This document shows positions 2,369-37,385 of a stretch of 37,385 nucleotides of DNA, in pieces. Source of the DNA: Candidatus Sysuiplasma acidicola. Lineage in GTDB: Archaea > Thermoplasmatota > Thermoplasmata > Sysuiplasmatales > Sysuiplasmataceae. The stretch's first letter is position 1, and each line of letters starts with the position of its first letter. The notes under the pieces were generated by a model, which did not search any database, was not told where the DNA came from, and saw only the letters and a program-made list of their open reading frames with translations. Where the stretch lies: positions 1 to 37,385 of the forward strand of contig JAHEAA010000019.1 of NCBI GenBank assembly GCA_019721035.1. Direction: 5' to 3'. A program made the translations under genes and the position numbers.

Positions 2369-2395
2369 CACTTAGCGTCTATTAAATGCATTTTT

Positions 2396-2885: not shown

Positions 2886-3614
2886 TTGACTTCCGTAACG
2901 ACAGGTGTAGAAAACGCCACTGCTGACGACCAGGATCACAAGGGCAACGTTGCTGCAAGGGACTTACTGCTCTACGCGCTGACATTCGTTGCCGGAAGCA
3001 TGGACGCCATCAGTTTCATCGGACTCGGACAGGTGTTCACTGCAAACATGACAGGCAACACGGTCCTCATGGCCATAGCTGTCGGGAGCGGCAAGTTCCT
3101 TGCGGCGAGCAGGTCAGTCGTTGCACTGCTGGGTTTCGCGGCTGGAGCGATGCTCGCGGGAAGAATGGTAGATCCGGGAAGGCACAAGATATTGTGGTCA
3201 AAAAGCGTGACAAGAGTGCTTTTTGTCGAGTTTGCAATTGCTGTTGTTTTTGCGCTGGCGTGGTTCTTCAACCACGGCTCTGACAACCAGTTAGATATTC
3301 AGGGGCTTATCGTGCTGAGTGCCCTTTCCATGGGTCTTCAGAGCGGCGCTGCAAGACGTCTTTCAGTTTCAGGAGTCTCGACAGTTGTCGTGACAAGCAT
3401 GCTCACCAGCCTGATGGCTGAGCTGGCTGCACTGGGTGCCGCGAGTCCGAACAGGGTGAGGTGGACAATGGTTTTTGTATCTCTCTTCGCCGGAGCCGCT
3501 GCAAGCGGTGTCCTGCTGGTGACAGTGAGAATACTTGCCCCGGTACTGCCGGCAGCAGTACTCTGCCTGATTTGCATTGCGGCGATCAGGAAATTCCACA
3601 ATAGTCTGCCATGA
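2886..3614 (+). CDS. DUF1275 (YoaK-type) membrane protein
   Basis: A 242-residue polytopic membrane protein of the DUF1275 family (PF06912), whose molecular role is not established. The family signature is clear at about residues 30-60: a transmembrane helix with AGSMDAISFIGLG followed by FTANMTGNTVLM. Six to seven hydrophobic segments follow and the length is normal. The start is a TTG with no ribosome binding site. It is supported indirectly by a diverged duplicate of the 5' end at about 31.85-31.99 kb (opposite strand), which keeps the same TTGACTTCC and the downstream 'AARDLLLYAL' reading. The gene is single and converges on the VOC gene. Confidence 0.85.
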   Translation: MTSVTTGVENATADDQDHKGNVAARDLLLYALTFVAGSMDAISFIGLGQVFTANMTGNTVLMAIAVGSGKFLAASRSVVALLGFAAGAMLAGRMVDPGRHKILWSKSVTRVLFVEFAIAVVFALAWFFNHGSDNQLDIQGLIVLSALSMGLQSGAARRLSVSGVSTVVVTSMLTSLMAELAALGAASPNRVRWTMVFVSLFAGAAASGVLLVTVRILAPVLPAAVLCLICIAAIRKFHNSLP

Positions 3615-23739: not shown

Positions 23740-24000
23740 TTTCACTCTGATGAGAAGGTGGCAGTTGCTTGAAACGGCGAGAGAAATGCGCAGGTCAGGC
23801 AGTGCTCCCGAAACAGTTTAAACTTCATAGATGAGCCGATGACAGAATGACAGGCGCCTATACAAGTGCCCAGGTGCATCTATTTTATCGCTGCTTTCGG
23901 TAAGTTTGCATAGTACTCGTAATGGGCGATGCCTTCTGGAACCATCATGGTTTATGCCACGTTACAGAATGGTTCTGGCCGTTATTGCAACCTAGATTAA
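23740..24000. other. Intergenic stretch before the surface protease
   Basis: Nothing recognised apart from the thermopsin promoter at its right end. Confidence 0.35.
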
Positions 24001-24008
24001 TATAAATA
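24001..24008 (+). promoter_or_regulatory. TATA box of the thermopsin-like gene
   Basis: TATAAATA centred 27 nt before the ATG at 24032, with no ribosome binding site: a leaderless promoter with a strong consensus box. Confidence 0.6.
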
Positions 24009-24031
24009 CGCGTATTGGAGATACTGGCGCT

Positions 24032-27000
24032 ATGTCTGGTAAGACTTTTGCTCTTAGTATAGCTGTTGCACTCCTTCTGGTGATCTCCGGCGCGTTTGCT
24101 TTCGCAGTAACCGCCGTTCACCAGTCTGGTGCAAATTCAAACACTACTGAATATTCACAGTTCGGCAGCAGCATTCCAGGTGCTCGTGTGACAGCCGGAT
24201 CGACGGCTGCTTCATTGTTCGGTGCTTCCGGACAGGCAGCAGCATTCGGTGCAGGGCGGTTTCCCAATTCCACTTCCGCAGCTTCCCCGTTTATAAACGC
24301 TGCCAAGAATGCCGGGGTACCGCTTCAGTATGTTTATGTGCCCGCTCCGAAGAAGGCGCCGGTCATTAATGGCAACGTCGTTTTGCCCGGCTATCTACAG
24401 GGACCGGCACCGTTCGGCATAGGCGCATATGGAATAAGGAACGTTTCAGGCACACTCCAACCGTTTATGTATACGACAACAGGATTCAATTCAAGCTTCA
24501 ATGCGACTCAGCTGAATGCTTTTGATGTTAATTCATTTGATCCTAACGGCGTATCGGTACAGCTTAATGCTGTGCTGACAGGAACTACGGTTGAGGGTGT
24601 AACAGGCTACACCTACTGGACTCAGAACGTGATGTTCTATGACAGCTATGCACATCAGTTCGAAATGTTGGACAATATATGGAATTTCAGCTCTCCCGGC
24701 GCAACCATGCCTTCATCCACGATATACAGCCACACTGCGACACAGTTTCCGTACCGGTACGCTTACATCGGAGCCGGACCGGTAATAAATAACGTGAGCA
24801 CGCCGTTTGTTGGGAATCTGTCGATGCAATCCGCCGTGGTCGGCGGAATGAGCACTGTATTTTTCAATTATACAATTACATTCACAAACCACAGTACAGG
24901 TAAAACCCAGACAATAGGCGGCGTCTTTGACGAAGTGCAGTTCAACTCTCTGAACGGTGTACTCGGATATACTGCGCCACTGCCACTTTACAAAGTCGAC
25001 GGTGGGAACGTTACGCCGACTGGCTACATACCATATGATGCAGAGGTTGCCATCATCGGCCCCGGTGGTGGAAGCCAGATTAACATACAGTCAATAAGCG
25101 GAACGCTCAGTCTGGATTACAAGAACGCTGCAGGAAAGATGGTAAACGTCCCGAGCGCCTACGACGTAGGTTCCGAAACAGGCGAAACTTCGACAGGAAT
25201 AGCGGAAGCGTGGCAGCCCTCAGGAGCGGTAACGCTTTCTTCAGGCCCGTCGCTTGTTTACGGCATGTGGAACATTACGCCATTCAGTGGCATGACGCAT
25301 TACACCGGAACAATCAGTCCTGCAAATTCGTTCATGTTCGTGAGTCCAGGCAGTTCGCTTTCTCTAGGGCAGTATGGATATGTGACAACGTCAACTGGCG
25401 GGCAGTACAGCTTCTGGCTGCCCACAGGCACGTACTCGCAGGGAGTGATGTTGAGCTACCACAACCCTGAATACGGCGCACTTTCTGCGTCCGAGAATAT
25501 CGTTCTCACTCTTAACTCATCGATGGGCGTCTACACGCCGCTGTACGCAATGGGCAACGCGGAGGCTGCAAACATATCGCTCTCCGGCAAGGGCACGCTT
25601 GCCAGCCCCTATCTTGCATACAACAACCAGCCTGGTTATATCAGCCCGTTTTTCGGCATGATGAATGATTACGGCTTCCCCGTATTTTCAGGCATACAGA
25701 TAGTGGACACCAGCGCTCATATCGACTTCAACAATTCCCCGTCATTCAGCATAATGTACGAACAGCCACAGACGACTCTATATCTCGGGCTGCTGTACTT
25801 CGTTCCCTCTGTAAACAATCTCGGCTACGTGTTCTACAACACATCCAATCTTTCAGTTTATGGTGCAAAACTCATAACCGGCACGATACCCGCCGACGCT
25901 GCAGCGGGCTTCTACGGTGCAAATATAATGATGTGGAACTCAACGCACGACCTTATTGCCAACTCAACCTTCGTAGGCACTCCTTTCCTGCCAGCCCAGT
26001 TCTCCATTCTCATCTATAATCCAGGCACAACGAACGGCACGAACGTGCTGTTCGGCAACCACTTCTTTGACAGTTCATTCTACCCCGGTAGCATTGGTCT
26101 TGGCATTGCCAGCTCGGGAAACCTGATATTCAACAACTATTTTGCCGACCGCCTTTCCGATGTATACCAGTTCCCGTCCAATCTTTACGCAGGACTGAAC
26201 ACTGGAGCCTTTGTCCTCTACACTGACACATGGAATGTAACACCGGCAGCGGCAAGCACATTCGTTTACCACTTCAACGGATACAACCTTGAGGGCAACA
26301 TCGTTGGCAACTCAACAATGGGAGGAAATTTCTGGAATGTGTATGTACCGGGCGTCAGCACACTGCCGTTCAATGACGGCGGCGCAATATTTGTCGGCGG
26401 AGACCACGCACCAGTGACCTATTCCGGGGCATCATATGCACCATACGTCCCTCTTATTTTCTTCGAGACAGGACTCGAAAGCGGCCAGTCCTGGTCTGTC
26501 AATCTTTCAGGTTATGTCCAGACCACTACATCCGATATGACGATATTCTACGCGCTTCCAAACGCATACTACAATTACACAGTACAGAGCGTACCGGGTT
26601 ACCTCGACTTCTTCTCAAACACCGGTTCCGTATACGTGTCCGGGAGTGGTGCAAATGTTGTAAGTCTGCTATATCTGCCCTATTACACGATAACGGTCAG
26701 GGAAATTGGTCTGCCACAGGGATACAGCTGGGAGGGAGCTATCCTTACTCGCACATTATCCCCCGTCACCAGCAACACGAGCAGCACCAGCGTGACAACA
26801 TTAGAGTGGGTGCCCGGCATTTGGTACCTCGGTGTTTCGCCGGTTGGCAGTTACTACAACTTCCCGGAGTACGACTCCTATTCATACAACATCACCATTG
26901 TTCCGCTCTTCAGCAACATATCTGTGACAATGCGCATGTCCCCGATATACAATAATTTCACGTTCACGCCGGTAAACATTGCGCCCGGCACGCCGTGGAG

Positions 27001-27844
27001 CGTGACAGTCTGGTTATTACTGCATGGAGGACCTCACGGAACAGAAGTCCTGGTAGGCACATTCTCGTCGACGAACACTAATCTGACTTTACCGCTCATT
27101 GAGGCTCAGTACGCTTACAGCTTCAGTTCAGGCAGCTACTATAAGGAAGGGAGCAATCCTTCCGGGTTCGAATTTGCACCTTTCTACTACCCGGGCATTT
27201 CATTCAATGTCTACACAGGATATCCAGTGACCTTCGACGTGAGCAACCTGCCTTCCGGTACTCAGTGGTATCTTGAAATATACGCGTTCAATGTCTACTA
27301 CGATCAGTCAGTGATAACTTCCTCAGGCAGTGTTACTGTGACTGTTCCTGCTGGGGGAATTGCTTATTCGATAACGCCGGCTAACAGCTCTTATCAGTCA
27401 TACAGCAACTCTGTTCTCGTTAACGCTCCTACGACCGTCAACGTTGCGATGGAGCTGAATCCCAATGTGCCGGTGACTGTGACATTCAGCGAAAGCGGCC
27501 TGTCTTCCGGTGCATCGTGGCATGTCACATTCAACGGTCAGACGCAGTCATCGACCTCATCCACGATCTCCTTCACAACTACGCCGGGAACCTACTACTA
27601 CCAGGCATATTCCAACGGGAGCATATCATCCCAGAGCTCCGGTACTCTGAATGTACAGCAATCCATGAGTGTTGGCATATCGTTCTCTGCACAACCGGCA
27701 CACAAAGCTGTCACAACGGACGCTGCCTCCTCTATGCTGATTGACGTGGGCCTACTGATTCTGGGACTAGTTGTCGGTGCAGTTGTCGCCTACGCAGCGG
27801 TAAAGTATGATGCATCCAGGAAGAAGGACAAAGGAAACCAGTGA
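24032..27844 (+). CDS. Thermopsin-family (A5) surface protease with repeat modules
   Basis: A 1270-residue exported protein. An N-terminal signal segment (LSIAVALLLVISGAFAFAV) is followed at about residues 115-460 by a thermopsin-like domain: APFGIGAYGIRN, VSVQLNAVLTG, YTYWTQNVMFYDS, EMLDNIWNFSS. Thermopsins are acid proteases of archaea. Around residues 600-720 an Asn/Gly-rich stretch (HDLIANSTFVG, GNLIFNNYFADR) suggests a beta-helix. About five modules of roughly 80-90 residues follow, starting near 810, 885, 974, 1065 and 1147, with the motif G-L-x-x-G-x-x-W (for example FFETGLESGQSW, FSESGLSSGASW). A C-terminal helix (about 1235-1260) with a basic tail anchors it to the membrane. It probably digests external protein for the nearby importer; that link is inference. 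Confidence 0.88.
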   Translation: MSGKTFALSIAVALLLVISGAFAFAVTAVHQSGANSNTTEYSQFGSSIPGARVTAGSTAASLFGASGQAAAFGAGRFPNSTSAASPFINAAKNAGVPLQYVYVPAPKKAPVINGNVVLPGYLQGPAPFGIGAYGIRNVSGTLQPFMYTTTGFNSSFNATQLNAFDVNSFDPNGVSVQLNAVLTGTTVEGVTGYTYWTQNVMFYDSYAHQFEMLDNIWNFSSPGATMPSSTIYSHTATQFPYRYAYIGAGPVINNVSTPFVGNLSMQSAVVGGMSTVFFNYTITFTNHSTGKTQTIGGVFDEVQFNSLNGVLGYTAPLPLYKVDGGNVTPTGYIPYDAEVAIIGPGGGSQINIQSISGTLSLDYKNAAGKMVNVPSAYDVGSETGETSTGIAEAWQPSGAVTLSSGPSLVYGMWNITPFSGMTHYTGTISPANSFMFVSPGSSLSLGQYGYVTTSTGGQYSFWLPTGTYSQGVMLSYHNPEYGALSASENIVLTLNSSMGVYTPLYAMGNAEAANISLSGKGTLASPYLAYNNQPGYISPFFGMMNDYGFPVFSGIQIVDTSAHIDFNNSPSFSIMYEQPQTTLYLGLLYFVPSVNNLGYVFYNTSNLSVYGAKLITGTIPADAAAGFYGANIMMWNSTHDLIANSTFVGTPFLPAQFSILIYNPGTTNGTNVLFGNHFFDSSFYPGSIGLGIASSGNLIFNNYFADRLSDVYQFPSNLYAGLNTGAFVLYTDTWNVTPAAASTFVYHFNGYNLEGNIVGNSTMGGNFWNVYVPGVSTLPFNDGGAIFVGGDHAPVTYSGASYAPYVPLIFFETGLESGQSWSVNLSGYVQTTTSDMTIFYALPNAYYNYTVQSVPGYLDFFSNTGSVYVSGSGANVVSLLYLPYYTITVREIGLPQGYSWEGAILTRTLSPVTSNTSSTSVTTLEWVPGIWYLGVSPVGSYYNFPEYDSYSYNITIVPLFSNISVTMRMSPIYNNFTFTPVNIAPGTPWSVTVWLLLHGGPHGTEVLVGTFSSTNTNLTLPLIEAQYAYSFSSGSYYKEGSNPSGFEFAPFYYPGISFNVYTGYPVTFDVSNLPSGTQWYLEIYAFNVYYDQSVITSSGSVTVTVPAGGIAYSITPANSSYQSYSNSVLVNAPTTVNVAMELNPNVPVTVTFSESGLSSGASWHVTFNGQTQSSTSSTISFTTTPGTYYYQAYSNGSISSQSSGTLNVQQSMSVGISFSAQPAHKAVTTDAASSMLIDVGLLILGLVVGAVVAYAAVKYDASRKKDKGNQ

Positions 27845-27877
27845 CAACCTGCCTGGTACAGACTGAGCCACAAACCT

Positions 27878-27912
27878 TTTCCAACTAAAATCTCTTATCT
27901 TCTTTTATCGAT
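27878..27912 (+). terminator. T-rich tract after the thermopsin-like gene
   Basis: A pyrimidine-rich run with several T tracts lies about 35-65 nt after the stop codon. Archaeal RNA polymerase terminates at such tracts. No stem-loop is obvious. Confidence 0.3.
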
Positions 27913-28040
27913 GTCAGATTGCATCTTAACTCACGCATGCTCTGCGAGCTACAGTTCATTTTTATTTTAGCGGAATTTCAAGGTTGCTCAGAATTAAATA
28001 ACTCTAAATTTGAGTACATGCTAGTGCCACGTGTGAAAAG

Positions 28041-28424
28041 ATGGTAAGCAGAGGAGTGGAAATCGGGATTCACCTGTCTCCCGGTCTTGCGGATGAAGGA
28101 TTTGTTGCTCTTGCACTTGGAAATCTTGCTGCATTTAAGCTGGCATCGGAGAAAAAGGATAAACTGCAGTGGCAGGTACTGAGAATTACAGGCGGTGATT
28201 CACATCACTTCAGGCTGGTGGTGAGGCATCCGGAAAAGATGGTGGAAATGGGCATTCGCAAGAAACTGGAAGAATACATGACTGATTTGTCAATGTACTC
28301 TGAATCAAAGCTGAAAGCAGCGTTTGACGATGCGGCAAAGAACGGCCTGAAGGCAGTGCCGTTGCGAACCATTCCTGAAGATCTGGACTTGTGGAGCGAT
28401 AATTTCTGGAACTGGCTTGGCTGA
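28041..28424 (+). CDS. Hypothetical protein
   Basis: Function not recognised. The product is a 127-residue soluble, charged protein. The middle (WQVLRITGGDSHHFRLVVRHPEKMVEMGIRKKLEEYM) alternates strand-like and helical stretches, and the C-terminus is rich in Trp and Asp (LDLWSDNFWNWLG). The start is ATG. A TATA-like AATTAAATAAC at about 27992-28002 would give a leader of roughly 18 nt with no clear ribosome binding site. It stands alone between the thermopsin-like gene and the convergent GNAT gene. The codon usage and composition look like the rest of the window, so it is probably a real gene. Confidence 0.55.
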   Translation: MVSRGVEIGIHLSPGLADEGFVALALGNLAAFKLASEKKDKLQWQVLRITGGDSHHFRLVVRHPEKMVEMGIRKKLEEYMTDLSMYSESKLKAAFDDAAKNGLKAVPLRTIPEDLDLWSDNFWNWLG

Positions 28425-28652
28425 ATGAACACTGTCTTTGTTCTTCCATGCATACAACTGAATAAAGATGCTGATGATTTGAAAATCAAGTGTGCAAAAT
28501 ATACACCGGTATTCGCCATTCTTTGTGTCATGGGATGAGTGCTTCAGCACGGCAGTTTTGACTTCTGCAATTTCAGTGGCGACGGGTTCGTTGGCACCTC
28601 CAGGCTCGAAGTCCTTAACGTGATATGCTCAGCGCCGGGTACGAATCAAACT

Positions 28653-29252
28653 TCAGGCCCTGCTCGCTTCTCGCTTTGTCCGCGCGGGGAGAATCTTCTT
28701 TACCACGACCCACCGCCGCATTGCGATCTTGCGCGTCTTCTCAAACCCCGTCTTCTCAAACATGCCCAGGGTACCGCTGCACAGGAATGAAGAGGAGACC
28801 TTCTCGCCAGTGTAGTCCTCGGGGTAGCCCTCGACCGTTCCGCCGCCGAGCTGAGCGATATATCGAAGCGCCTCGCGGAGGGCGAGTGTGGCAATGCCCT
28901 CGCCCCTTCGTTCACGGTCAATAAAGAAGCATGTGATGCGCCAGTCGGGAAGCTTATGCAGTCCTTCCTCATAGGTCTTCTTGCTCCTGATATTGGGTAG
29001 TTCCGCTGTCGAGCCGAACTGGCACCAGCCGACCGCGTTCCGGCCATCAAAGACGAGCGCGGCGTGCGCGCGGCCTTCCCGCACTCGCGCCTCTTTCATC
29101 GCCCGGTACGCCGCCGCGCCACGCTTCCCCTCCCCCGGCTCGAGATGAAACGCGATGCACCAGCATCCACCGAAGATCCCGTTGTGCTTTTCTACGAGGC
29201 GAGCAAAGGCAGGCCAAGTCGAGGAGGACAGTTGTTTCGTCGTGAATGACAT
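28653..29252 (-). CDS. GNAT-family N-acetyltransferase
   Basis: Acetyl-CoA-dependent acetyltransferase of the GNAT fold, 199 residues from the ATG at 29252. The acetyl-CoA-binding motif is readable as CFFIDRERRGEGIATLALREAL (R/Q-x-x-G-x-G/A pattern), preceded by AVGWCQFG and followed by GTLGMFEKTGFEKTRK. The sequence NGIFGGCWCIAFH at the N-terminus belongs to a subgroup common in bacteria. An ATG six codons upstream is possible, but the chosen one has AGGT about 8 nt ahead. The GC-rich codon use, like that of the next two genes, differs from the neighbours and suggests recent acquisition. Substrate unknown. Confidence 0.88.
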   Translation of the reverse strand: MSFTTKQLSSSTWPAFARLVEKHNGIFGGCWCIAFHLEPGEGKRGAAAYRAMKEARVREGRAHAALVFDGRNAVGWCQFGSTAELPNIRSKKTYEEGLHKLPDWRITCFFIDRERRGEGIATLALREALRYIAQLGGGTVEGYPEDYTGEKVSSSFLCSGTLGMFEKTGFEKTRKIAMRRWVVVKKILPARTKREASRA

Positions 29253-29372
29253 TTTTTGGTTACCTGTCATGTGGTAATGGCGGACATGCTCAATAATCCT
29301 TCCAGGGCGGGGTTGAATATTGGCAGGGCCCTGCGTAAGTGGGCTACGCGGCTACATGCTCACTCGAGAATC

Positions 29373-30215
29373 TTATATTCTCCGATCTCCGATGACTGAA
29401 ATGAAACTGGAGAGCGCCGCATCGAACGTATCCGGGGCTGAAAGGTTCAGGAGGTGGTCCGCGCCGGGAACGAGCTGCACGCTGGCGCCGGTGACACCCC
29501 TGGCAAGAAAATGCGCGCAATGAGGCATCACGGGATTGTCGCGGTCCCCCACCAGAATCCGGGTTGGGACGCGGATTTCATTCAGCCGGGCGGCGGCAGG
29601 TCCACCCTCACGCCGTTCGTGCTGGCCGGAACGCTCCTCAAAAACTTCTTTCGCATTGTCTCGGACCATTACTCGGAAAAGGTCGAGCGTGCTTTCCTTG
29701 AGTGCCGAAGCCCAGAGCTGCCGCAGGTGTTCTGTAGCCTCCTCTAGATTTCCGGCTGCCCATGCATCCGCGGCTGCCTTGGATAACCGCTCGTCCCGTT
29801 CAAACGTGGACTTCCCGCCCGGTACATGATCGTAGTCCATTCCGGAATAGCCCGGCGCGATGAGCAAGAGTCCACCCACCCTGTCGGGATGCGCGAGTGT
29901 AAGGTCGAGCGCGATTTTCCCGCCAATGCTGGGACCTACGAACAGCGGCCGCTCCATGTGCAAACGGTCGATCAGTGCCACAGCATCTTCGACAGGGGAG
30001 AAATCCGAGGACGCCGGTTCAGAACCACCGTACCCGCGCAAATCGTAGCGCACGACTCTATGGTTGCGCGCCAGAAGGGGGAATTCACGGTTCCACATGC
30101 GTCGGTCCGTTATGCCTTCATGAAGGAGCACAATCGGTGAACCGCTCCCCATGACCTCGTAGGCTAATTTCCCGCCGGACACGTCCAATGTCTGTGTAAC
30201 GCTCGTGGTGCTCAT
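29373..30215 (-). CDS. Alpha/beta hydrolase
   Basis: A 280-residue alpha/beta-hydrolase-fold enzyme. The nucleophile elbow is G-P-S-I-G-G (Ser at about residue 96), the acid is one of the Asp residues in VGDRDNP (about 224-226), and the His is in PGADHLLNL (about 254). The oxyanion region reads LLHEGITDRRMW and the strand-4 motif reads VVRYDLRGYGGSEP, close to esterases, lactonases and haloperoxidase-like hydrolases. The start at 30215 (codon 11 of the open frame) gives the usual N-terminus; the first ATG is at 30245. It lies divergent from the DHFR-like gene with 159 nt between. GC-rich, with a bacterial-style sequence. Confidence 0.9.
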   Translation of the reverse strand: MSTTSVTQTLDVSGGKLAYEVMGSGSPIVLLHEGITDRRMWNREFPLLARNHRVVRYDLRGYGGSEPASSDFSPVEDAVALIDRLHMERPLFVGPSIGGKIALDLTLAHPDRVGGLLLIAPGYSGMDYDHVPGGKSTFERDERLSKAAADAWAAGNLEEATEHLRQLWASALKESTLDLFRVMVRDNAKEVFEERSGQHERREGGPAAARLNEIRVPTRILVGDRDNPVMPHCAHFLARGVTGASVQLVPGADHLLNLSAPDTFDAALSSFISVIGDRRI

Positions 30216-30374
30216 CTGTGAAATTGTAGTGCAGATATTGTGCAAATACTTTGTCTCGAAATCTGTGGCGGACAGGCATGTAACAGGTCAGCCCTGGAGC
30301 GCACGCGTAAGATTATACGAATGTTCGGCCTATCCATCCCCGGTAAACGCGTAGAGCGTAGGTGGGAGAAAGCA

Positions 30375-30956
30375 ATGAGCCGAAAGATTACTGTCAACCT
30401 CTACATGACTTTGGACGGGTACGCTGAGTTTCCACCATATCCCGGGTCGGACACTCCTTCGGCAGAACCGGGCGAAGTATTCCTTGACATGTGGATACGC
30501 CGATACGAATCGGTAGACACAGTCGTCTTCGGCCGACGGTCTTTCGAGGATCACTTAAATTTTCACTCTGAAGCTGCCCGCAAGCCCTCCGATCCAAAGT
30601 TCTTGTTCGAGTTTTCACGGTGGCTCGATAGATGCAACAAGATTGTTCTGTCACATCACATGAAGAAATCTGAGTGGCAGAATTCAACGATCATGAGCGG
30701 CAATCTGGAGGAGATAGTTTCACGTCTCAGGTCGGCACCAGGTCGCGACATCATCGTCGATGGCGGTCCTTCACTCGTCCAGGAGTTCATTCAGCGCGGT
30801 TTGGCCGACGACTACCTGATCGCGATTTGGCCAGTGCTCCTCGGGCGTGGGAAATCCTACTGGGGGGCCATGCTGAATCAGCAGACCCTGAAGCTGCTAT
30901 CAGTCAAAACTCTGCCGTACGGTGAGTTGCTGCTTCATTATGAAACGGTGCGTTAA
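30375..30956 (+). CDS. Dihydrofolate reductase/RibD C-terminal family protein
   Basis: A 193-residue NADPH-dependent reductase-fold protein of the RibD C-terminal/DHFR-like family (PF01872). Landmarks are KITVNLYMTLDGYAEFP at the N-terminus, VVFGRRSFED, NKIVLSHHMKK, DIIVDGGPSLVQEFIQRGLADDYLIAIWPVLLGRGKSYW and a short final strand. Stand-alone members are common in bacteria and often of unknown substrate. The start is the ATG at 30375, preceded by GGTGGGAGA at suitable distance. A longer open frame upstream (from 30240) lacks family similarity and overlaps the hydrolase promoter. Confidence 0.88.
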   Translation: MSRKITVNLYMTLDGYAEFPPYPGSDTPSAEPGEVFLDMWIRRYESVDTVVFGRRSFEDHLNFHSEAARKPSDPKFLFEFSRWLDRCNKIVLSHHMKKSEWQNSTIMSGNLEEIVSRLRSAPGRDIIVDGGPSLVQEFIQRGLADDYLIAIWPVLLGRGKSYWGAMLNQQTLKLLSVKTLPYGELLLHYETVR

Positions 30957-31084
30957 GTCAGGAGATTAGACGCCTCCTCCAGTGGCATTGAAGTAGCCAT
31001 TGCCTCTGGCCAGAGTGCTGGAATGAGCTTTCGAACCTATTGACACTCACTGTCGACTTAACTCGATGGCGCTAACTACCGTAT

Positions 31085-31092
31085 TCTTTATT
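31085..31092 (+). promoter_or_regulatory. TATA-like element of the RHH/PIN pair
   Basis: TCTTTATT lies about 38 nt before the ATG at 31126, predicting a transcription start inside the adjacent operator. Confidence 0.35.
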
Positions 31093-31097
31093 GATGG

Positions 31098-31123
31098 GTT
31101 ATCATATGTTATCATGTGATAAC
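31098..31123. promoter_or_regulatory. Operator with three GTTATCA half-sites
   Basis: GTTATCA occurs at 31098-31104 and 31108-31114, and its inverted copy TGATAAC at 31117-31123. The second and third form a perfect 7-bp inverted repeat around TG. The array ends 2 nt before the antitoxin ATG, a standard place for autoregulation by a ribbon-helix-helix antitoxin. Confidence 0.65.
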
Positions 31124-31125
31124 AA

Positions 31126-31377
31126 ATGAAAACATCAGTAATAGGGATACGGATCGATGCGGCAACATCTTCCTTGATAGATCGCATAATCAAGTATAAA
31201 CTGGCCAATTCAAAAGCAGATGCGATTAGATTCATCATGCTCAATGGAATGAAAGGAGCCACGGGCATCGTGGAAAGAAAGGAAGCGGCTGAAAAGATAT
31301 TGAGTTCCTGGCACAAGAAGGGATTTCCCCGACTCCCAAAGGATCTTTCAAAGATGGCATTGAAGGAGAGGGAGTGA
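31126..31377 (+). CDS. Ribbon-helix-helix antitoxin (VapB/CopG-like)
   Basis: An 83-residue protein with an N-terminal ribbon-helix-helix: strand KTSVIGIRIDAATSSLIDRIIK, then helix LANSKADAIRFIMLNGM, the CopG/Arc-type pattern. The basic C-terminal tail (about residues 48-83) would wrap the toxin. It lies directly behind a three-half-site operator and overlaps the PIN toxin gene by one base (TGATG), so this is a classical toxin-antitoxin pair. Binding of the antitoxin, or the complex, to GTTATCA repeats would repress the operon. Start is ATG. Confidence 0.85.
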   Translation: MKTSVIGIRIDAATSSLIDRIIKYKLANSKADAIRFIMLNGMKGATGIVERKEAAEKILSSWHKKGFPRLPKDLSKMALKERE

Positions 31378-31802
31378 TGGATTACATAGACACAAGTGTT
31401 GTCCTCTCACGCATCAACCCGAATGACGCAAACCATCCATCAGGAATGCGGCTAATCGAACAGTCTAGGGACATGGTGGTTTCCGCGATTACGCTTCTTG
31501 AGATGAAATCGGTATTTTCGAGAACCACAAAGCTGACAGAAGAGGAAATAGAAGCCTACCTGCGACATGTGGATGAGATTGGCATTGAAAGTAAGATTGC
31601 GAACTTTAACCGGGTTTTCACACGGGCATTAGAGATATCCTTCTGCTTGAAGATGAAAACACTCGACGTATTGCATTTGGCGGCATGTCTCGAAATAGGA
31701 GCTGAGGTCTTTGTCTCCCTCGATCAGGAGTTTGAATCACGGGCACGTGAAATCAGCAACCTGGGTATCACTGTCAGAACATCACGAGATATTGATTTGT
31801 GA
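31377..31802 (+). CDS. PIN-domain toxin (VapC-like)
   Basis: A 141-residue VapC-type ribonuclease. Metal-binding acids are readable: D in MDYIDTSVVLS, E in TLLEMKS, D in MKTLDVLHLAAC and D in FVSLDQEFE, the usual four of a PIN active site. VapC toxins cut tRNA or rRNA when released from the antitoxin. The ATG overlaps the antitoxin stop; a GTG one codon upstream is less likely. The last codons and about 60 nt downstream are repeated at 34044-34134, so this 3' end was duplicated. Confidence 0.88.
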   Translation: MDYIDTSVVLSRINPNDANHPSGMRLIEQSRDMVVSAITLLEMKSVFSRTTKLTEEEIEAYLRHVDEIGIESKIANFNRVFTRALEISFCLKMKTLDVLHLAACLEIGAEVFVSLDQEFESRAREISNLGITVRTSRDIDL

Positions 31803-31861
31803 TTGCGAAAGTATACAGTAAGCCAGTCTACAGATACGACTTCGACTTTCAAGTTCCGGCG
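31771..31861 (+). repeat. Repeat A, copy 1 (tail of the PIN toxin gene and downstream)
   Basis: About 90 nt covering the last codons of the toxin and its 3' flank matches 34044-34134 in the same orientation. The block GTCAGAACATCACGAGATAT is identical in both. Similarity continues through the stop codon (TGA here, TAA in the other copy) and across ATTGCGAAAG, ACAGT, GCCA and ACGACTTCG. Confidence 0.75.
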
Positions 31862-31995
31862 ACGAATGCCAAGTGCGTAGAGCAGTAAGTCCCTTGCAGC
31901 AACGCTGTCCTTAAGATACTGGTCATCAGCAGCGGCAGTTCCTCGACCAGCCGTTTTGGAAGTCAACGAGTGTGGAAGTAATCAGAAAATGGAAA
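31850..31995 (-). pseudogene. Truncated 5' copy of the DUF1275 gene
   Basis: On the minus strand this stretch matches 2855-2996: it keeps the TTGACTTCC start region and the block GCTGCAAGGGACTTACTGCT (identical), encoding AARDLLLYAL. About two thirds of the first 32 residues match the intact protein. A one-base insertion after the Leu codon breaks the frame, and similarity stops at CCGGAA. The remainder of the gene is absent. It lies immediately beside the PIN toxin tail. Confidence 0.8.
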
Positions 31996-32110
31996 ACATC
32001 TCATTGAATCGGTGGGGCGTCAGAGCAGTTGCCAGGTCGTTGTCTCACTGCATGCTTACAGGCGATGTTAATCGCCGCAACTTACGATTCTGTTTACAGC
32101 GTCTGGTAGA
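31996..32110. other. Short non-coding stretch
   Basis: Between the DUF1275 fragment and the hairpin downstream of the ice-binding-like gene. Nothing recognised. Confidence 0.3.
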
Positions 32111-32135
32111 GGTTCATGACTATTGATCATGAACC
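32111..32135. repeat. Perfect 9-bp inverted repeat with 7-nt loop
   Basis: GGTTCATGA, loop CTATTGA, TCATGAACC. It lies downstream of the ice-binding-like gene and may act as a second terminator, an mRNA 3' end stabiliser or a protein site. Confidence 0.5.
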
Positions 32136-32168
32136 CATGAAAAAGGTTTCAGGCATTGATTTAGTAAA

Positions 32169-32196
32169 ATTCCATTTGCAAACGCAAAAATGGAAT
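32169..32196 (-). terminator. Stem-loop terminator of the ice-binding-like gene
   Basis: Directly after the stop codon. On the minus strand the arms ATTCCAT..TGC and GCAAATGGAAT form an 11-bp stem with a small bulge and a short loop, followed by TTTTACTAA. It resembles an intrinsic terminator. Confidence 0.55.
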
Positions 32197-33645
32197 CTAT
32201 AGCTTCTTGTGCCTCAATATTCCGATAGATGCCCCTATGGCTGCAATTGCAATTATTGCACCCGCGATCAGGTAAAGGTCCAAACTGCTGGATGACGAAG
32301 TGGGTGAGGTCGTTGTAGTCGTGCTGCTCCTGGAGAACGATACAGCGTGAGTTAAGGAAGAGCCGTTAGCTGTGAATGTTCCACTTGGTGCTTTGAATGC
32401 AGTGTCGGTTGTTCCTGCAACATACGCATATGTTCCATTCCCGAGGATGGTTGAGTAGGAGGTCGCTGTTATTGGACCGGATGATGCCATACCCGTTATG
32501 TTCACGAACCATGTCGAACCTGAAGGCAGTCCGGACTCCGTTATTGTAACCGTAAAAGTTGTAGTCGCAATATTGGACACCCCTGTGGGCGATGTTACAT
32601 TGTCTGCATTAAGTGTAACATCTGACTGTGCCAGTGCTCTGCCGTTTAGTGTTGAGCCGGTGTTAATTGTTATTGCAGTCTGAGACAGAATAATGCCATA
32701 AATAGAAACGGTTGTCCCTATTGTGGCTCCTCCGGCTACCTGCCAGAAGATGTTCTTGGCCCGTGCTCCACCACTCAGTATTATGTGTGCGCCGTTAGCA
32801 ACGGTTAATTTTCCAGATATCTGGAAAATCCAGACGGCACTTGAATTGCCGGCGAGAGTTGCACTCGTTGGTATTAAAAGCCCTGTAGACCATTTGTAGA
32901 GACCAGGTCCGAGTGTCATTCCACCGATGTTTCCTGCACCGAGGTTCACGTAGTTGGGATTGGTTCTTCCTGCTGCATTGGTGTAAGCGGTCATCATGTT
33001 ATCGACTGATGTGGTTAACATTGACGGGGTTGGAGATGCGTAGTTGGATGCATACGCTTTACCGGTGACAACAGATGACGTGGAAAACTGACCGGTTGAG
33101 CTCATGATTAAGCCGAATCCGGTAATATATGTGGCAGCGGCCGGACTAACACCCAGATTTCCGACGATCTTTGTGGTTCCAGTTGTTGATATTCCTGTCT
33201 TGCCCAGAATGGCGAAATTGCCAGCTGTTCCAAGGTCGACGGATGCTATTGACGTGGAAGACGTCGAGAACATAACTGTTACATTCTGCGACGTGCCATT
33301 TACGGTTACAGTTCCTGAACTCGGAGAATTGGAGTAACCTGCGATGCCAGTGATGGTATAAGCGTAACTTCCGATTGCCATGTAAAAGTTAACATGACTC
33401 GTTGTTGACGAGTTTGACGAACCGTTAAGCGTTACAGACCAGGATGTTCCGCCTACAAGGCCGGTTTCAATGAAAGAAACAGTATACTTGGGGCTTACCG
33501 CATTAGTTGCGGAAGTGTTTCCAAATTGAGACAAATGTGTCTGGGCAGGGCTGTTGCTGGGAATCACCATACTCGCTGATATGAGAAAAGCAATAGTCAT
33601 GAAGAGAACTATTGAGATTTTCACCTTCTTATTTTTCTTATTCAT
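32197..33645 (-). CDS. Ice-binding-like (DUF3494) surface protein with archaeal repeat modules
   Basis: A 482-residue exported protein. A basic N-terminus and hydrophobic segment (VKISIVLFMTIAFLISASMVI) form the signal. A first module (about residues 54-128; FIETGLVGGTSWSVTLNG) matches the repeats of the thermopsin-like protein. Residues about 135-352 are a DUF3494 domain (PF11999), the ice-binding beta-helix family: VDLGTAGNFAILGKTGIST, GNLGVSPAAATYITGFG, LGAGNIGGMTLGPGLYKWSTG, WIFQISGKLTVANGA, ILSGGARAKNIFWQVAGGA, GIILSQTAI, LNGRALAQSDVTLNA. A second G-L-x-x-G-x-x-W module and a C-terminal helix with basic end follow. Most characterised family members bind ice or serve as adhesins; function here is open. 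Start is ATG 33645, with a GTG three codons upstream. Confidence 0.9.
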   Translation of the reverse strand: MNKKNKKVKISIVLFMTIAFLISASMVIPSNSPAQTHLSQFGNTSATNAVSPKYTVSFIETGLVGGTSWSVTLNGSSNSSTTSHVNFYMAIGSYAYTITGIAGYSNSPSSGTVTVNGTSQNVTVMFSTSSTSIASVDLGTAGNFAILGKTGISTTGTTKIVGNLGVSPAAATYITGFGLIMSSTGQFSTSSVVTGKAYASNYASPTPSMLTTSVDNMMTAYTNAAGRTNPNYVNLGAGNIGGMTLGPGLYKWSTGLLIPTSATLAGNSSAVWIFQISGKLTVANGAHIILSGGARAKNIFWQVAGGATIGTTVSIYGIILSQTAITINTGSTLNGRALAQSDVTLNADNVTSPTGVSNIATTTFTVTITESGLPSGSTWFVNITGMASSGPITATSYSTILGNGTYAYVAGTTDTAFKAPSGTFTANGSSLTHAVSFSRSSTTTTTSPTSSSSSLDLYLIAGAIIAIAAIGASIGILRHKKL

Positions 33646-33702
33646 ATTACTCACTTACAATCACGACAATTATTGACGCGATGGCGATACCACACTATAT
33701 TG

Positions 33703-33714
33703 ACTATATAAATA
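33703..33714 (-). promoter_or_regulatory. TATA box of the ice-binding-like gene
   Basis: CTATTTATATAG is centred about 60 nt upstream of the start, giving an expected leader of roughly 30-40 nt, unlike the leaderless genes around it. A second AT-rich TATA-like stretch follows at about 33755-33768. Confidence 0.5.
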
Positions 33715-33769
33715 GATGTATTAAAAATATAGAATATCTGTTGAATATATAAACTATATACGCAATGAC

Positions 33770-34040
33770 GTGACAGCCATACAGTTGATCAGGCCTTAAT
33801 GCGATGAGACTCTATGAGACTCAATAATTGAGTTCACAAACACAAGGCAGGGCACGCATGCGCTCAATGAAGATTTCTGCGCTCATTCCCCGCAGCATAA
33901 CGGACCGTCAAAGTACTCTTTCACCATCTGCACGGGTAACCCGTCCCCCGTGAATATTGATGAAACAGAGTAACACGGTGTTGCTACAGACACATTCGGC
34001 AGGCGCCCATCGGCAACGAGAAACTTCGTGCCGCAACACT
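33770..34040. other. Non-coding stretch with several small palindromes
   Basis: No gene. Two direct repeats ATGAGACTC (33804-33812, 33814-33822) run into the palindrome ACTCAAT-A-ATTGAGT (33819-33833). Another palindrome ACGGGT-A-ACCCGT lies at 33932-33944. Confidence 0.4.
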
Positions 34041-34043
34041 ACC

Positions 34044-34134
34044 CTGTCAGAACATCACGAGATATTGATTTGTAATTGCGAAAGAAGACAGTGGGCCATT
34101 GCGCAAACACGACTTCGGCTTAAAACTGGCGGGC
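34044..34134 (+). repeat. Repeat A, copy 2 (decayed PIN-gene tail)
   Basis: Matches 31771-31861. It encodes the same VRTSRDIDL ending followed by a stop, but no PIN body lies upstream, so this is the remnant of a deleted or duplicated toxin gene. Confidence 0.7.
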
Positions 34135-34184
34135 GATAGACATGTGGCTCACAGACGAGCTGTTGACTGTGCGCTTAGTGCACA

Positions 34185-34400
34185 ATGCAGAAAACGTCGT
34201 CTTCCCGGGAACACCAGGTTTCGACATCGCTGGACAGAGTGTTGCACCTCTCTGTCAATGTGAACTTCTGGGGAGAATCGTTCCGGTTGAGGGAGAAGAA
34301 GTCAGTATATTTCGGTGCAAAGGAGGAAGTGCGAGAAATTCGAACACGTGTCGTGAATGAGATAATTAGATTCTACACGATTTCAGCGCTTGGATTTTGA
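34185..34400 (+). pseudogene. Possible transposase (integrase-core) C-terminal remnant
   Basis: The frame ends with NVNFWGESFRLREKKSVYF, then GAKEEVREIRTR and NEIIRFYTISALGF. The order (residues around a Glu, a middle basic part, then an I-x-F-Y segment ending in A-L-G-F) resembles the end of IS3/IS481-type transposases (...E-S-F... F-I-x-x-Y-N... A-L-G-Y). Only the last ~50 residues look coherent and nothing matches upstream, so it is a fragment at best. Confidence 0.3.
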
Positions 34401-34578
34401 GCCTGCTTACCCCTTCTGTTGACCGGGTAGTCAGTCTAACCAGCCTGAGTAAGGCGGTTTGATGTCAGGCCGCAAAACAGGCATGAAAGCTCACTTTCCA
34501 ATGTAATGTCGCACAGTTTGTTGCAGCTTCAGCGCATGTTTCAATGACAGCTGGAAACAAAAATTAAGCGACTTGCGA
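34401..34578. other. Short non-coding stretch
   Basis: Between the transposase-like scrap and the end of the PIN gene. Nothing recognised. Confidence 0.3.
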
Positions 34579-34989
34579 CTACCTCCATATAGTCTTGAGC
34601 TGTTTGACTGTGGCGAAAGACGGATCGTTAGATATTAATGGCAATCCGCGACTCATGGCTTCTGCTGCAATCATTCTGTCATGCAATTCTGAAATATTCA
34701 GGCCCAAGAACGTTTTCCACGCCTCTAACGAAAGTGGGGACAGAGTTATGTAAGCCGCACTTCTCAATTGATCCAGCACTTCTCCGACGAGACTCCCTGG
34801 ATCGGATATTCGAACCCGCCCGCGAAGCGCAATGTATAGAAACTCGCCAAGGGCTATTTCAGGTAGGAATATCATAGCCCTCCCACGCTCTGCTTCTTTG
34901 AATGCCCTATTGGCGGCAGGAGGTAGGCTATCCTCAAGATAGCGAACCAAACCAACTGTGTCGGCTACGAAATCAGTCACAGGATCCAT
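34579..34989 (-). CDS. PIN-domain toxin (VapC-like), second pair
   Basis: A 136-residue PIN protein with acids in the expected places: D in FVADTVGLVRYLED, E in EIALGEFLYIAL, D in ELHDRMIAAEAMSRG and D in PLISNDPSF. It overlaps the upstream AbrB-type antitoxin gene by 13 nt, so the two are a toxin-antitoxin operon independent of the RHH/PIN pair 3 kb to the left. The likely activity is RNA cleavage, as for VapC proteins. Start is ATG. Confidence 0.87.
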   Translation of the reverse strand: MDPVTDFVADTVGLVRYLEDSLPPAANRAFKEAERGRAMIFLPEIALGEFLYIALRGRVRISDPGSLVGEVLDQLRSAAYITLSPLSLEAWKTFLGLNISELHDRMIAAEAMSRGLPLISNDPSFATVKQLKTIWR

Positions 34990-35204
34990 TCCTTTCTGAG
35001 TTTGCGAAGCTGTTCCTCAAACTCATCCGAATCAATCTTTCCCTTCAGGAGTCCTCTCAGGCTGGTACGGCCGTGTTTTATCAATATGCCCTCACCGGAG
35101 TCAAGCAGTATGGCTGTTTCTCCTTCGTTCAGATGATATTTCTCGCGCAGTTCCTTCGGGAGCGTCACTTGGCCCTTCGAACTGATCGTCACCGCTTTTG
35201 ACAT
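34977..35204 (-). CDS. AbrB/MazE-type antitoxin
   Basis: A 75-residue protein (from the ATG at 35204) with an N-terminal SpoVT-AbrB swapped-hairpin DNA-binding domain: KAVTISSKGQVTLPKELREKYHLNEGE, the defining family motif. The C-terminal tail, with paired acids and bases (DSDEFEEQLRKLRKE), would bind the PIN toxin. A frame start nine codons upstream (35231) is less likely because the AbrB domain normally begins a few residues from the N-terminus. The 17-bp palindrome at 35240-35256 lies 35 nt upstream and is its presumed operator. Confidence 0.88.
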   Translation of the reverse strand: MSKAVTISSKGQVTLPKELREKYHLNEGETAILLDSGEGILIKHGRTSLRGLLKGKIDSDEFEEQLRKLRKEWIL

Positions 35205-35239
35205 GAATGTGGCGATGTGTTTGAAGCTCAAATACTTTG

Positions 35240-35256
35240 CTTTACTTTAAGTAAAG
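35240..35256. promoter_or_regulatory. 17-bp palindromic operator of the AbrB/PIN pair
   Basis: CTTTACTT-T-AAGTAAAG is a perfect 8-bp inverted repeat, located 35 nt upstream of the antitoxin start in the promoter region. Confidence 0.55.
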
Positions 35257-35377
35257 AATTAGAACATGACGTTTTAAATGGCGTGATAGGGGTATTCAGG
35301 TTGTGATGCAGTGCACAGCACGTACTAAACAGAACCTCGGAACCTCGGCCGATTATGTTCATATGCAGGGTTTGCCA

Positions 35378-35395
35378 ATTTACCAATTGGTAAAT
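35378..35395. promoter_or_regulatory. 18-bp perfect palindrome
   Basis: ATTTACCAATTGGTAAAT is fully self-complementary. It ends 2 nt before the TTG start of the nuclease-like ORF. A regulator site is likely, but the cognate regulator is unknown. Confidence 0.55.
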
Positions 35396-35397
35396 CC

Positions 35398-35604
35398 TTG
35401 GAATTGAGTAAATATCTCCCAACTAATGAATTTCAGATTGAGCAGTCATTGAAAGACAAACTCGCTGAGTTGTTAGGTGGCCTAAGAATAGACAAGATTG
35501 CCGTTCAAGGGTCAATGAACAGGTTTGCTGCTGACATGATAGCCGATGTTTCGGTTGGGAGGACAAAGCGCACCCCGGTGATCGAAATAAAATCCATTGG
35601 CTAA
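35398..35604 (+). pseudogene. Short PD-(D/E)XK-like ORF, probably truncated
   Basis: The product (68 residues) ends with AADMIADVSVGRTKRTPVIEIKSIG. An Asp followed after about 14-17 residues by E-I-K is the PD-(D/E)XK nuclease core (D46 or D50, E63, K65). A typical nuclease domain continues with a further helix and Gln/Lys after E-x-K, but here the frame stops three codons later. It is therefore probably a 5' remnant of a nuclease or nuclease-fold protein. TTG start directly behind an 18-bp palindrome. Function of the short product, if made, is unknown. Confidence 0.4.
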
Positions 35605-35689
35605 CCCAGAAATGCGCAGAGAGTGATTTTCCAAATGCACGAAGCTGTTACTCGCATTGTCAACGCTTATCCCGTCTTTGCATCCTCAT

Positions 35690-36001
35690 ATGTAACGGAA
35701 TCAACATGAGATTTGTGCAAGGCTGCAGGGATAGGGCACATTGACCTGGCAGGCAACATACATCTTCGCTTTGCAAATGTCATAATCGATAAAATCTCTC
35801 CCACCTCTCCAGAACGTGAGCGCAGGGATTCCATTGAAGCAAAGCGGAGCACAGGTCCGCCGAGCCTGAGTTGAACTCGAACAGACTTTCATGTCGGGGA
35901 GTGCTGAAAGTCTCGCTGAAACCGAAAAGGTCCCTGTAAAACGCGACAGATGTCTCCACGTCATCGACATACAGGTTCACTTGCGGATCTCTAAACACCA
36001 A
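35690..36001 (-). pseudogene. Frameshifted VOC-fold (glyoxalase-like) gene
   Basis: The minus strand opens with VFRDPQVNLYVDDVETSVAFYRDLFGFSETF, an unmistakable first half of a VOC protein, starting near a TTG/GTG at 35998-36001. The frame then continues with HESLFEFNSGSADL and is lost at a TGA. A neighbouring frame continues as FASMESLRSRSGEVGEI, which resembles the middle of such proteins, and no clear second half follows. At least one frameshift and a 3' truncation are implied. The relative at 3711-4136 is intact but not closely similar. Confidence 0.5.
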
Positions 36002-36254
36002 TCCCCAAACCGTCAGCGATGAATTGAATATTTCTGAACGGTGCTGTGAACACGGAAGTTTAGCAGCTGGCAAATTCTGGGCATGCACATACAGACAGGA
36101 ATCGCCGCGGTTTGCTTTTCCATTTTTGATTTTCAGAACAAGACAGTTTCATGCCTGCCAACATGTGATGATTCTGTCTCATCATCGTCTGTCACGAAAT
36201 TGACTTTCTCACTTGCTTCTACTGAGTCCAGTGCTTTGACTTGTTTCCTTTCAG
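36002..36254. other. Non-coding stretch
   Basis: Between the VOC relic and the small membrane protein. Nothing recognised. Confidence 0.3.
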
Positions 36255-36737
36255 TTAACGCTTTTCCCTGAGGCTCTGGGAGAAACCAGTCATATAACCT
36301 CCGATGTAGCCCGCAGTTATTGCGCAGGCAAAAGGTATACTGGTCGCGAGTATGAGGTCTAGGTTCTGGGACATTGTGAGACCGGGAAAATCGATGTATC
36401 TGAAACCTGAAATCAGGACGAACCCAAGGAAAGAGCCTAAATATGCTGCTAATGCCGTAAGTACCAAAAGAACGGGAAACTGTTGGTTGCCTAAAATGAA
36501 CCTGCCTACAACATATGCCAGTACAAATACAATGACTGTTCCCAGCAGAAACTCCACGTTGGCAATCGTTGTGATGGTCATCAAATTCTGGTAAATTGTT
36601 CTAAACGTGTGTCCGGTGGCCTTTAACGCGATATTCCTCCATGCCGAAATTGTGGTGCTCAAAACGAACGGAATAAGGAAGTCTAATGCATATCCTAATA
36701 TATTGTGGTCGGCTTGTTTTGTCACTGCGCTAGACAT
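36255..36737 (-). CDS. Small polytopic membrane protein
   Basis: The product is about 160 residues from the ATG at 36737. Four hydrophobic segments are visible: YALDFLIPFVLSTTI; FLLGTVIVFVLAYVVGRFIL; PVLLVLTALAAYLGSFLGFVLI; and LILATSIPFACAITAGYIGGYM. The C-terminus is basic. Function not recognised. The third segment resembles that of the small membrane protein at 1324-1782. A TTG ten codons upstream (36767) is also open, but an ATG without upstream coding signal is preferred. AT-rich sequence about 35 nt upstream may hold the promoter. Confidence 0.55.
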   Translation of the reverse strand: MSSAVTKQADHNILGYALDFLIPFVLSTTISAWRNIALKATGHTFRTIYQNLMTITTIANVEFLLGTVIVFVLAYVVGRFILGNQQFPVLLVLTALAAYLGSFLGFVLISGFRYIDFPGLTMSQNLDLILATSIPFACAITAGYIGGYMTGFSQSLREKR

Positions 36738-37127
36738 GATTCCAACGGCGTGGAATATTTCAAACAAGTATTAAATCGTAACTCCGTCAACAGTATCTTA
36801 GAAGCTTTATAAAAATAGTTAATCACACCTAAATTGAGTATCATGTACCTTCAGATGGATAGTGCCACGAATCCTGTAATGGGCCATTGTATTTTGAATC
36901 ACGCCGTTGTCGTAAAGTAGCAAATATTTGTCTATTTGGGACAATTTGTTCGTAATGAATGGCAATTTCTCAATTGCCAATTGTGGGAAAATTGCGAGGA
37001 CTATGTTCATTCGTGACACAAGTTCTATCAATCCAGAATGGTCTGCTCCCCTAAATACTGCGACATTATTGGCTTATAAGGATCCGGAGAAAACAAGTCA
37101 GAATGAGGGTGGTTTGGAGGGAGCATT
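36738..37127. other. AT-rich intergenic stretch
   Basis: No convincing gene; two overlapping ORFs on opposite strands (36819-37031 and 36928-37131) have no family resemblance. It includes the palindrome CAAATATTTG (36921-36930) and GGGACAATTTGTTC (36938-36951), a near-copy of the palindrome at 2425-2442. The left end of an insertion element should lie somewhere in the right half, before the transposase start; its exact boundary is not identifiable. Confidence 0.4.
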
Positions 37128-37385
37128 GTGACGGCGAGAACAAGAAGGAGATGGCAGCCTGAGGAGAAACTCGCTGTCATCAAGGAAGTGCAGGAGAAGG
37201 GATCTGTCGTCGAAACGTGCAGGAAATACTCCATCGACCCTGCCATGTACTATCGTTGGAAGGCATCCTACGACGCATTCGGAGTCGACGGTCTCAAGTC
37301 ACACTACAGAAGGATGGAACCGGGCCTCAGGAAACTGATGAAGGAGAACTCAAGACTGAAGAAGCTGCTCGCTGAGAAGGATCTC
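37128..37385 (+). CDS. IS3-family-type transposase OrfA, cut by the window edge
   Basis: A frame starting with GTG at 37128 stays open to the last base, giving 86 residues with no stop. It has GGAGG 7 nt upstream. The product starts with TARTRRRWQPEEKLAVIKEV, then KGSVVETCRKYSIDPAMYYRWK: a helix-turn-helix of the Tnp_1 (PF01527) type. It continues with a Leu-rich heptad pattern (LRKLMKENSRLKKLLAEKDL), the oligomerisation zipper of OrfA of IS3-type elements. OrfB would lie beyond the window. This is the clearest intact mobile-element gene here. Confidence 0.8.
   Translation, partial: MTARTRRRWQPEEKLAVIKEVQEKGSVVETCRKYSIDPAMYYRWKASYDAFGVDGLKSHYRRMEPGLRKLMKENSRLKKLLAEKDL

Follow-up and report, generated by a model that had tools for sequence, protein, structure and literature searches.

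A DUF3494 ice-binding-type domain in a membrane-anchored, acid-adapted archaeal protein whose gene was probably gained horizontally

DUF3494 is usually interpreted as a domain for antifreeze activity or ice adhesion, and polar microbes use its fold to hold on to ice. Its presence in a membrane protein of Candidatus Sysuiplasma acidicola, an archaeon that is probably acid-loving, raises the question of what the domain might bind there and how its gene arrived. We addressed this question for the gene at 32197-33645 (minus strand) of the 37,385-nt stretch of DNA analysed here, which we refer to as the window.

Architecture of the DUF3494 protein

The gene encodes 482 aa plus a stop codon from an ATG at 33645, as judged from the list of open reading frames, Pfam and an AlphaFold2 model. 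A GTG at 33654 would give 485 aa (ORF 33654..32197, minus strand); we regard the ATG as the likelier start, and residue numbers below are those of the 482-aa version, in which the range originally given for the domain, residues 135-352, is right. A Pfam search of the protein found PF11999 (Ice_binding) as the sole family, at residues 146-351 (32593-33210, minus strand), with 239.5 bits against a gathering cut-off of 28.7, an E value of 3.8e-71 and coverage of profile positions 1-208 of 208; the domain, which had been predicted to be near full-length, is complete. The match was also found at the nucleotide level (33210-32593, E 2.8e-72). Given the E value, the single copy in the 1.97 Mb window genome and the absence of PF11999 matches from all 14 control genomes, we conclude that the match is far above chance. 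The NCBIfam equivalog NF045625 (IBP_CFB) scored 223.6 bits, below its 400-bit cut-off.

An AlphaFold2 model of the protein, built from a 62-row alignment, has the expected DUF3494 fold: a beta-solenoid with a series of strands and a long helix at residues 206-225 (32971-33030, minus strand; DSSP on the model), with pLDDT mostly >90. The best Foldseek match was 9LHN (rmsd 0.8 Å, 62% identity, target TM-score 0.97), followed by FfIBP, LeIBP and TisAFP. 9LHN, 9LI0 and 9LHS, from Candidatus Cryosericum odellii SMC5, share the solenoid with the window protein at 60-63% identity and 0.8-1.0 Å over complete coverage, and a further structure of the ice-binding protein of this organism is 9LHR. However, C. 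odellii is a bacterium, and the 9LHN sequence, which is 100% identical to one of our loci (L062), lies in a 595-aa ORF that lacks the flanking modules described below. The antifreeze proteins FfIBP, LeIBP and TisAFP have the same fold as the window domain (0.7-2.6 Å, 45-55% identity), but their source organisms, bacteria and fungi, are polar or cold-adapted, and their solved chains lack the archaeal modules.

The DUF3494 domain is flanked on either side by GLxxGxxW motifs, each within a predicted Ig-like beta-sandwich module. Module 1 spans residues 50-130 (33256-33498, minus strand), as delimited by the motif, model strands at 54-128, an alignment of modules and a match to a thermopsin-like protein encoded 5 kb away. 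Module 2 spans residues 358-440 (32326-32574, minus strand), as delimited by its own match to that protein and a model of the lone module (23 rows, pLDDT 84.6); in the model of the whole protein, the second sandwich covers residues 364-436. The matches lie at residues 1142-1223 (module 1, E 5.2e-5) and 1130-1257 (module 2, E 7.6e-5) of the thermopsin-like protein, in agreement with the original prediction that the two proteins have modules in common. On this sequence evidence, the modules of the DUF3494 protein are homologous to those in the C-terminal part of the thermopsin-like protein. A PDB fold search with the lone module returned nothing significant, just weak Ig/FnIII-like matches, and a Pfam search returned no convincing family. 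Hence, "Ig-like" should be read as a statement of predicted fold class only, and, since the modules are absent from Pfam, it is their position and not their family that makes them stalk-like. The gene for the thermopsin-like protein itself (24032-27844, plus strand) encodes a PF05317 domain (E 2.4e-48), a series of GLxxGxxW modules and, at the C-terminal end, a hydrophobic stretch; this protein matches 11 places in the window genome, many of them module-only.

At the N terminus, the model has a signal-peptide-like hydrophobic helix at residues 3-24 (33574-33639, minus strand), followed by a disordered stretch; an N-terminal hydrophobic stretch is also found in six relatives. At the C terminus, a low-confidence Ser/Thr linker separates the second beta-sandwich from a terminal helix that forms a transmembrane anchor with a short basic tail (residues 455-481; 32203-32283, minus strand), conserved in all five relatives that were aligned as far as the C terminus. 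We conclude that the window protein is a type I membrane protein in which, as predicted, DUF3494 sits between two GLxxGxxW modules and ahead of a membrane anchor. This layout resembles that of fibrillar adhesins, with an adhesive domain (DUF3494 is among the listed adhesive domains; PMC8286594), two Ig-like modules and a transmembrane helix. Ice adhesins that tether cells have also been proposed to combine a DUF3494 domain with an Ig-like tether and an anchor (PMC9957290). SfIBP_1 of Shewanella frigidimarina (PDB 6BG8), cited in PMC9957290, combines an ice-binding domain with beta-sandwich domains as a proposed cell tether; its domain is 29% identical to that of the window protein, from which it also differs in host type and stalk modules.

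Relatives, distribution and probable horizontal gain

The same sandwich of modules around DUF3494 is found in Ferroplasma acidiphilum Y (G034) and in G052, G338, G329, G415, G189 and HSP1.bin27. In a tree whose bootstrap was not fully settled, the sandwich proteins form one domain clade (support 100/99) with the window copy basal and the remaining copies grouped at 98/86. The nearest neighbour of this clade is a Micrarchaeota copy, with weak support (77/76), and 9LHN falls outside it. More distant DUF3494 relatives are spread over numerous phyla of both bacteria and archaea; to judge by record names, their sources include groundwater, lake and fen samples. The protein of F. acidiphilum and 'F. 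acidarmanus' (L009, L010) has the same order of parts as the window protein (signal helix, module, DUF3494, modules, transmembrane helix) and a domain 72-73% identical to it; unlike the window protein, it has two extra C-terminal modules and a regular, uncharged B-face. G052, which is probably 'F. acidarmanus' fer1, is 99.2% identical to F. acidiphilum Y across the 17 kb locus, with an identical DUF3494 domain (L113, L114). A second copy in HSP1.bin27 (L035, 5611-7440) has two tandem DUF3494 domains, with modules before and between them.

DUF3494 has already been reported from archaea, including Thermoplasmatota (Poseidoniales, Methanomicrobiales; PMC9957290). In the papers searched, Ferroplasma is joined with ice-binding domains in passing mentions only, and none describes its DUF3494 surface protein. 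The form seen here is a mobile, acid-adapted DUF3494 sandwich with Thermoplasmata-type modules.

The gene is patchily distributed: it occurs in one of eight genomes of the window's order (the window genome only) and in 8 of 77 Ferroplasma-family genomes, and 35 of the 400 genomes sampled from the class have a match. In a genus mate (G064, L178), the sequences corresponding to 23894-31865 and 34044-36625 are collinear with the window and 91% identical, but the 2.18 kb between them (31866-34043), comprising the gene and both its spacers, is absent, with nothing in its place. Since both flanks are collinear with the genus mate, contamination or misassembly is unlikely. The domain is also more similar between genomes than a core enzyme is. 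Window and Ferroplasma domains are 72% identical, as compared to 54% for adenosylhomocysteinase from the same pair (partial 16S rRNA, 78.8%); Ferroplasma and G338, which belong to different genera, have domains 91% identical and adenosylhomocysteinases 65% identical. Most copies in the Ferroplasma family are 83-91% identical between genera.

An imperfect direct repeat bounds the insert; its two copies, 85% identical over 78 nt, lie on the plus strand at 31771-31848 (left copy, at the end of a PIN-toxin gene) and 34044-34121 (right copy). Of the positions at which the two copies differ, the single copy in G064 matches the left one at 12 and the right one at 11, and these positions are interleaved. 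We reasoned that a crossover between the repeats would leave a single switch from one to the other; hence, the G064 copy does not look like a crossover product, and loss of the gene from G064 by such a deletion is unlikely. Rather, G064 appears to retain the ancestral state from before the duplication, and it was the insertion that doubled the end of this PIN-toxin gene. Within the insert, downstream of the DUF3494 gene, a 68-nt stretch (32101-32168, minus strand) matches the starts of three related 308-aa transposase genes in G329 and HSP1.bin27, both of the Ferroplasma family. It covers sequence upstream of the transposase gene together with the opening codons (MNLYQT), and is the remnant of one end of an element that, from our own reading of the protein, is of IS5 type. 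This transposase had no match in the window genome and, but for a marginal one in G064 (E 3.8e-4), none in four other genomes of the window's family. On its left side, the insert begins close to a 144-nt stretch (31854-31997, minus strand) that partially repeats, in inverted orientation, the start of a membrane-protein gene (2886-3614); it is 79% identical to 2997-2855. Toxin-antitoxin-like pairs flank the insert at 31126-31802 (plus strand) and 34579-35231 (minus strand); both have PIN toxins, the second with a MazE/AbrB-type antitoxin. At the sandwich loci of the Ferroplasma family, queries with the IS5-type transposase or TnpB found no homologue; by eye, there is a TnpB-like ORF 1.4 kb downstream of the sandwich gene in L032.

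The patchy occurrence, the empty site in the genus mate, the IS5-type remnant and a domain identity that exceeds core-enzyme identity together argue that the window gene was horizontally gained, with a Ferroplasma-family-like genome as the likeliest source. The alternative, ancient vertical inheritance within Thermoplasmata followed by many losses, had been named beforehand as the outcome that would count against the original prediction, and is not seen for this gene. In its favour, the tree does not reject the grouping of all Thermoplasmata copies in one clade (p-AU 0.11), but it would have to accommodate the 1/8 and 8/77 distributions, the ancestral-type single repeat at the empty site, a foreign element remnant in the insert and a domain 91% identical between genera whose core enzyme is 65% identical; we consider it very improbable. 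Placing all archaeal copies in one clade is weakly rejected (p-AU 0.034), and the domain may have been transferred between domains of life. The original prediction also held that the domain had been captured into an archaeal surface scaffold. The complete DUF3494 domain and the modules in common with the thermopsin-like protein fit such a scaffold; however, the capture did not take place in the window genome, since the sandwich is common to Ferroplasma and its relatives and arrived whole.

Host, B-face and candidate ligands

The lineage had been described as acidophilic or warm. Growth temperatures estimated from IVYWREL content, with a rough formula, were 39.5 °C (window genome), 45.7 °C (F. 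acidiphilum) and 72.7 °C (the single-contig control G013, presumably the thermophile Aciduliprofundum boonei). In a genus mate whose partial 16S rRNA is 99.7% identical (G020), the GC content of the 16S rRNA is about 55%. Given this value and the proteome estimate of about 40 °C, the host appears to be a mesophile: a warm habitat is not supported, and a cold one is not evident. The acid-adapted setting, by contrast, stands. Low acidic-residue content is the pattern expected of acid-exposed proteins, and Asp plus Glu make up 1.7% of the window domain and 2.0% of Ferroplasma-clade copies, as compared to a mean of 5.3% for bacterial and other archaeal relatives. Among window proteins, the values are 11-12% for cytosolic proteins and 4-6% for other secreted ones. 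The 430-residue ectodomain has 7 acidic and 12 basic residues, 33% Ser plus Thr, no Cys and ten N-glycosylation sequons.

The ice face of DUF3494 proteins consists of T-A/G-x-T/N rows. We placed the B-face rows using this motif, the alignment and predicted strands; in a published column analysis, too, the B-face is marked by one column of small residues and another of Thr/Ser (PMC12337378). With rows so inferred, the face of the Ferroplasma copies is regular, uncharged and of Ser/Thr/Ala/Gly type (p2 small in 7/7 rows, p4 Thr or Ser in 6/7), whereas that of the window copy is only partly regular (p2 small in 4/7, p4 Thr, Ser or Asn in 5/7), with three charged residues (K159, K279 and D342) as well as L257. 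Corresponding counts, with rows inferred from the alignment, are 6 (p2) and 7 (p4) for the FfIBP variant and 4 and 5 for LeIBP. Conservation at the outward B-face positions does not exceed that at other positions with polar or small residues (P 0.83 in the Ferroplasma clade, P 0.996 in the family), and we rejected B-face conservation as evidence for a ligand. The lack of charge is likewise weak evidence for ice binding, since acid-exposed proteins here are charge-poor anyway. Given the partial regularity, the charges in the window copy and the lack of special conservation, the face neither proves nor excludes ice binding.

F. acidiphilum, which was grown in culture at 37 °C and pH 1.8, is able to attach to pyrite (PMC4408177). 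These traits, together with the tether-and-anchor layout, favour a surface adhesin whose target is not mainly ice, an explanation to which we would give roughly an even chance and which we prefer to ice binding. We infer that the DUF3494 solenoid would be held off the membrane by the Thermoplasmata-type Ig-like modules and the C-terminal transmembrane helix, displayed outward, with its flat Ser/Thr/Ala/Gly-rich side turned toward a solid or polymeric target such as a grain of mineral, the polysaccharide of a biofilm or an adjacent cell. A surface ligand in place of ice, as originally suggested, is plausible. It is a good deal more speculative, and rather improbable, that in extremely acidophilic archaea the ice face of DUF3494, which matches a lattice, has been turned to the binding of a mineral lattice (for example sulfide, sulfur or iron sulfate); if so, mesophilic acidophilic archaea would have a horizontally mobile mineral adhesin.

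Two other explanations have to be set against a surface adhesin. The solenoid might be a rugged, acid-stable, glycosylated module of the cell coat, in a structural or protective envelope protein that has no specific ligand. The unexceptional conservation of the B-face, the Ser/Thr-rich, Cys-free ectodomain with its ten sequons, and modules in common with other surface proteins all fit such a role. However, most Ferroplasma-family copies are near-unchanged between genera (83-91%) and keep a regular face, and the gene is accessory, unlike that of an essential coat protein; we regard this role as unlikely, though less so than ice binding. The protein could instead be a working ice-binding protein or adhesin, if its hosts meet freezing in acid waters, sediments or soils that are cold or freeze seasonally, where the anchored domain would tether cells to ice or blunt recrystallisation. 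In its favour are the 62-63% identity and 0.8 Å fit to 9LHN and 9LI0, deposited as ice-binding proteins, the face of most Ferroplasma-family copies (p2 7/7, p4 6/7), which is near that of FfIBP, and close bacterial relatives some of which, by record name, come from fens and Chersky material. F. acidiphilum is nevertheless mesophilic and, as far as is known, the hosts are not cold-living; the window proteome also predicts growth at about 40 °C. K159, K279, D342 and L257 on the window B-face argue in the same direction, yet LeIBP, a real ice binder, is also charged there. On balance, ice binding seems doubtful.

DUF3494, in a conserved anchored architecture, moves between archaea of acid habitats, one of them grown near 37 °C and pH 2, and F. 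acidiphilum offers a cultured test case for ligands other than ice. Caution is warranted in that such genes should not be annotated straight as ice-binding proteins.

Other features of the window

An Rfam search across the window matched nothing. A secreted-looking protein (1796-2371, minus strand) and a membrane protein (36255-36767, minus strand) have no Pfam match. The start of a transposase gene lies at 37128-37385 (plus strand; HTH_Tnp_1, E 4.9e-16), where it is cut by the end of the contig.
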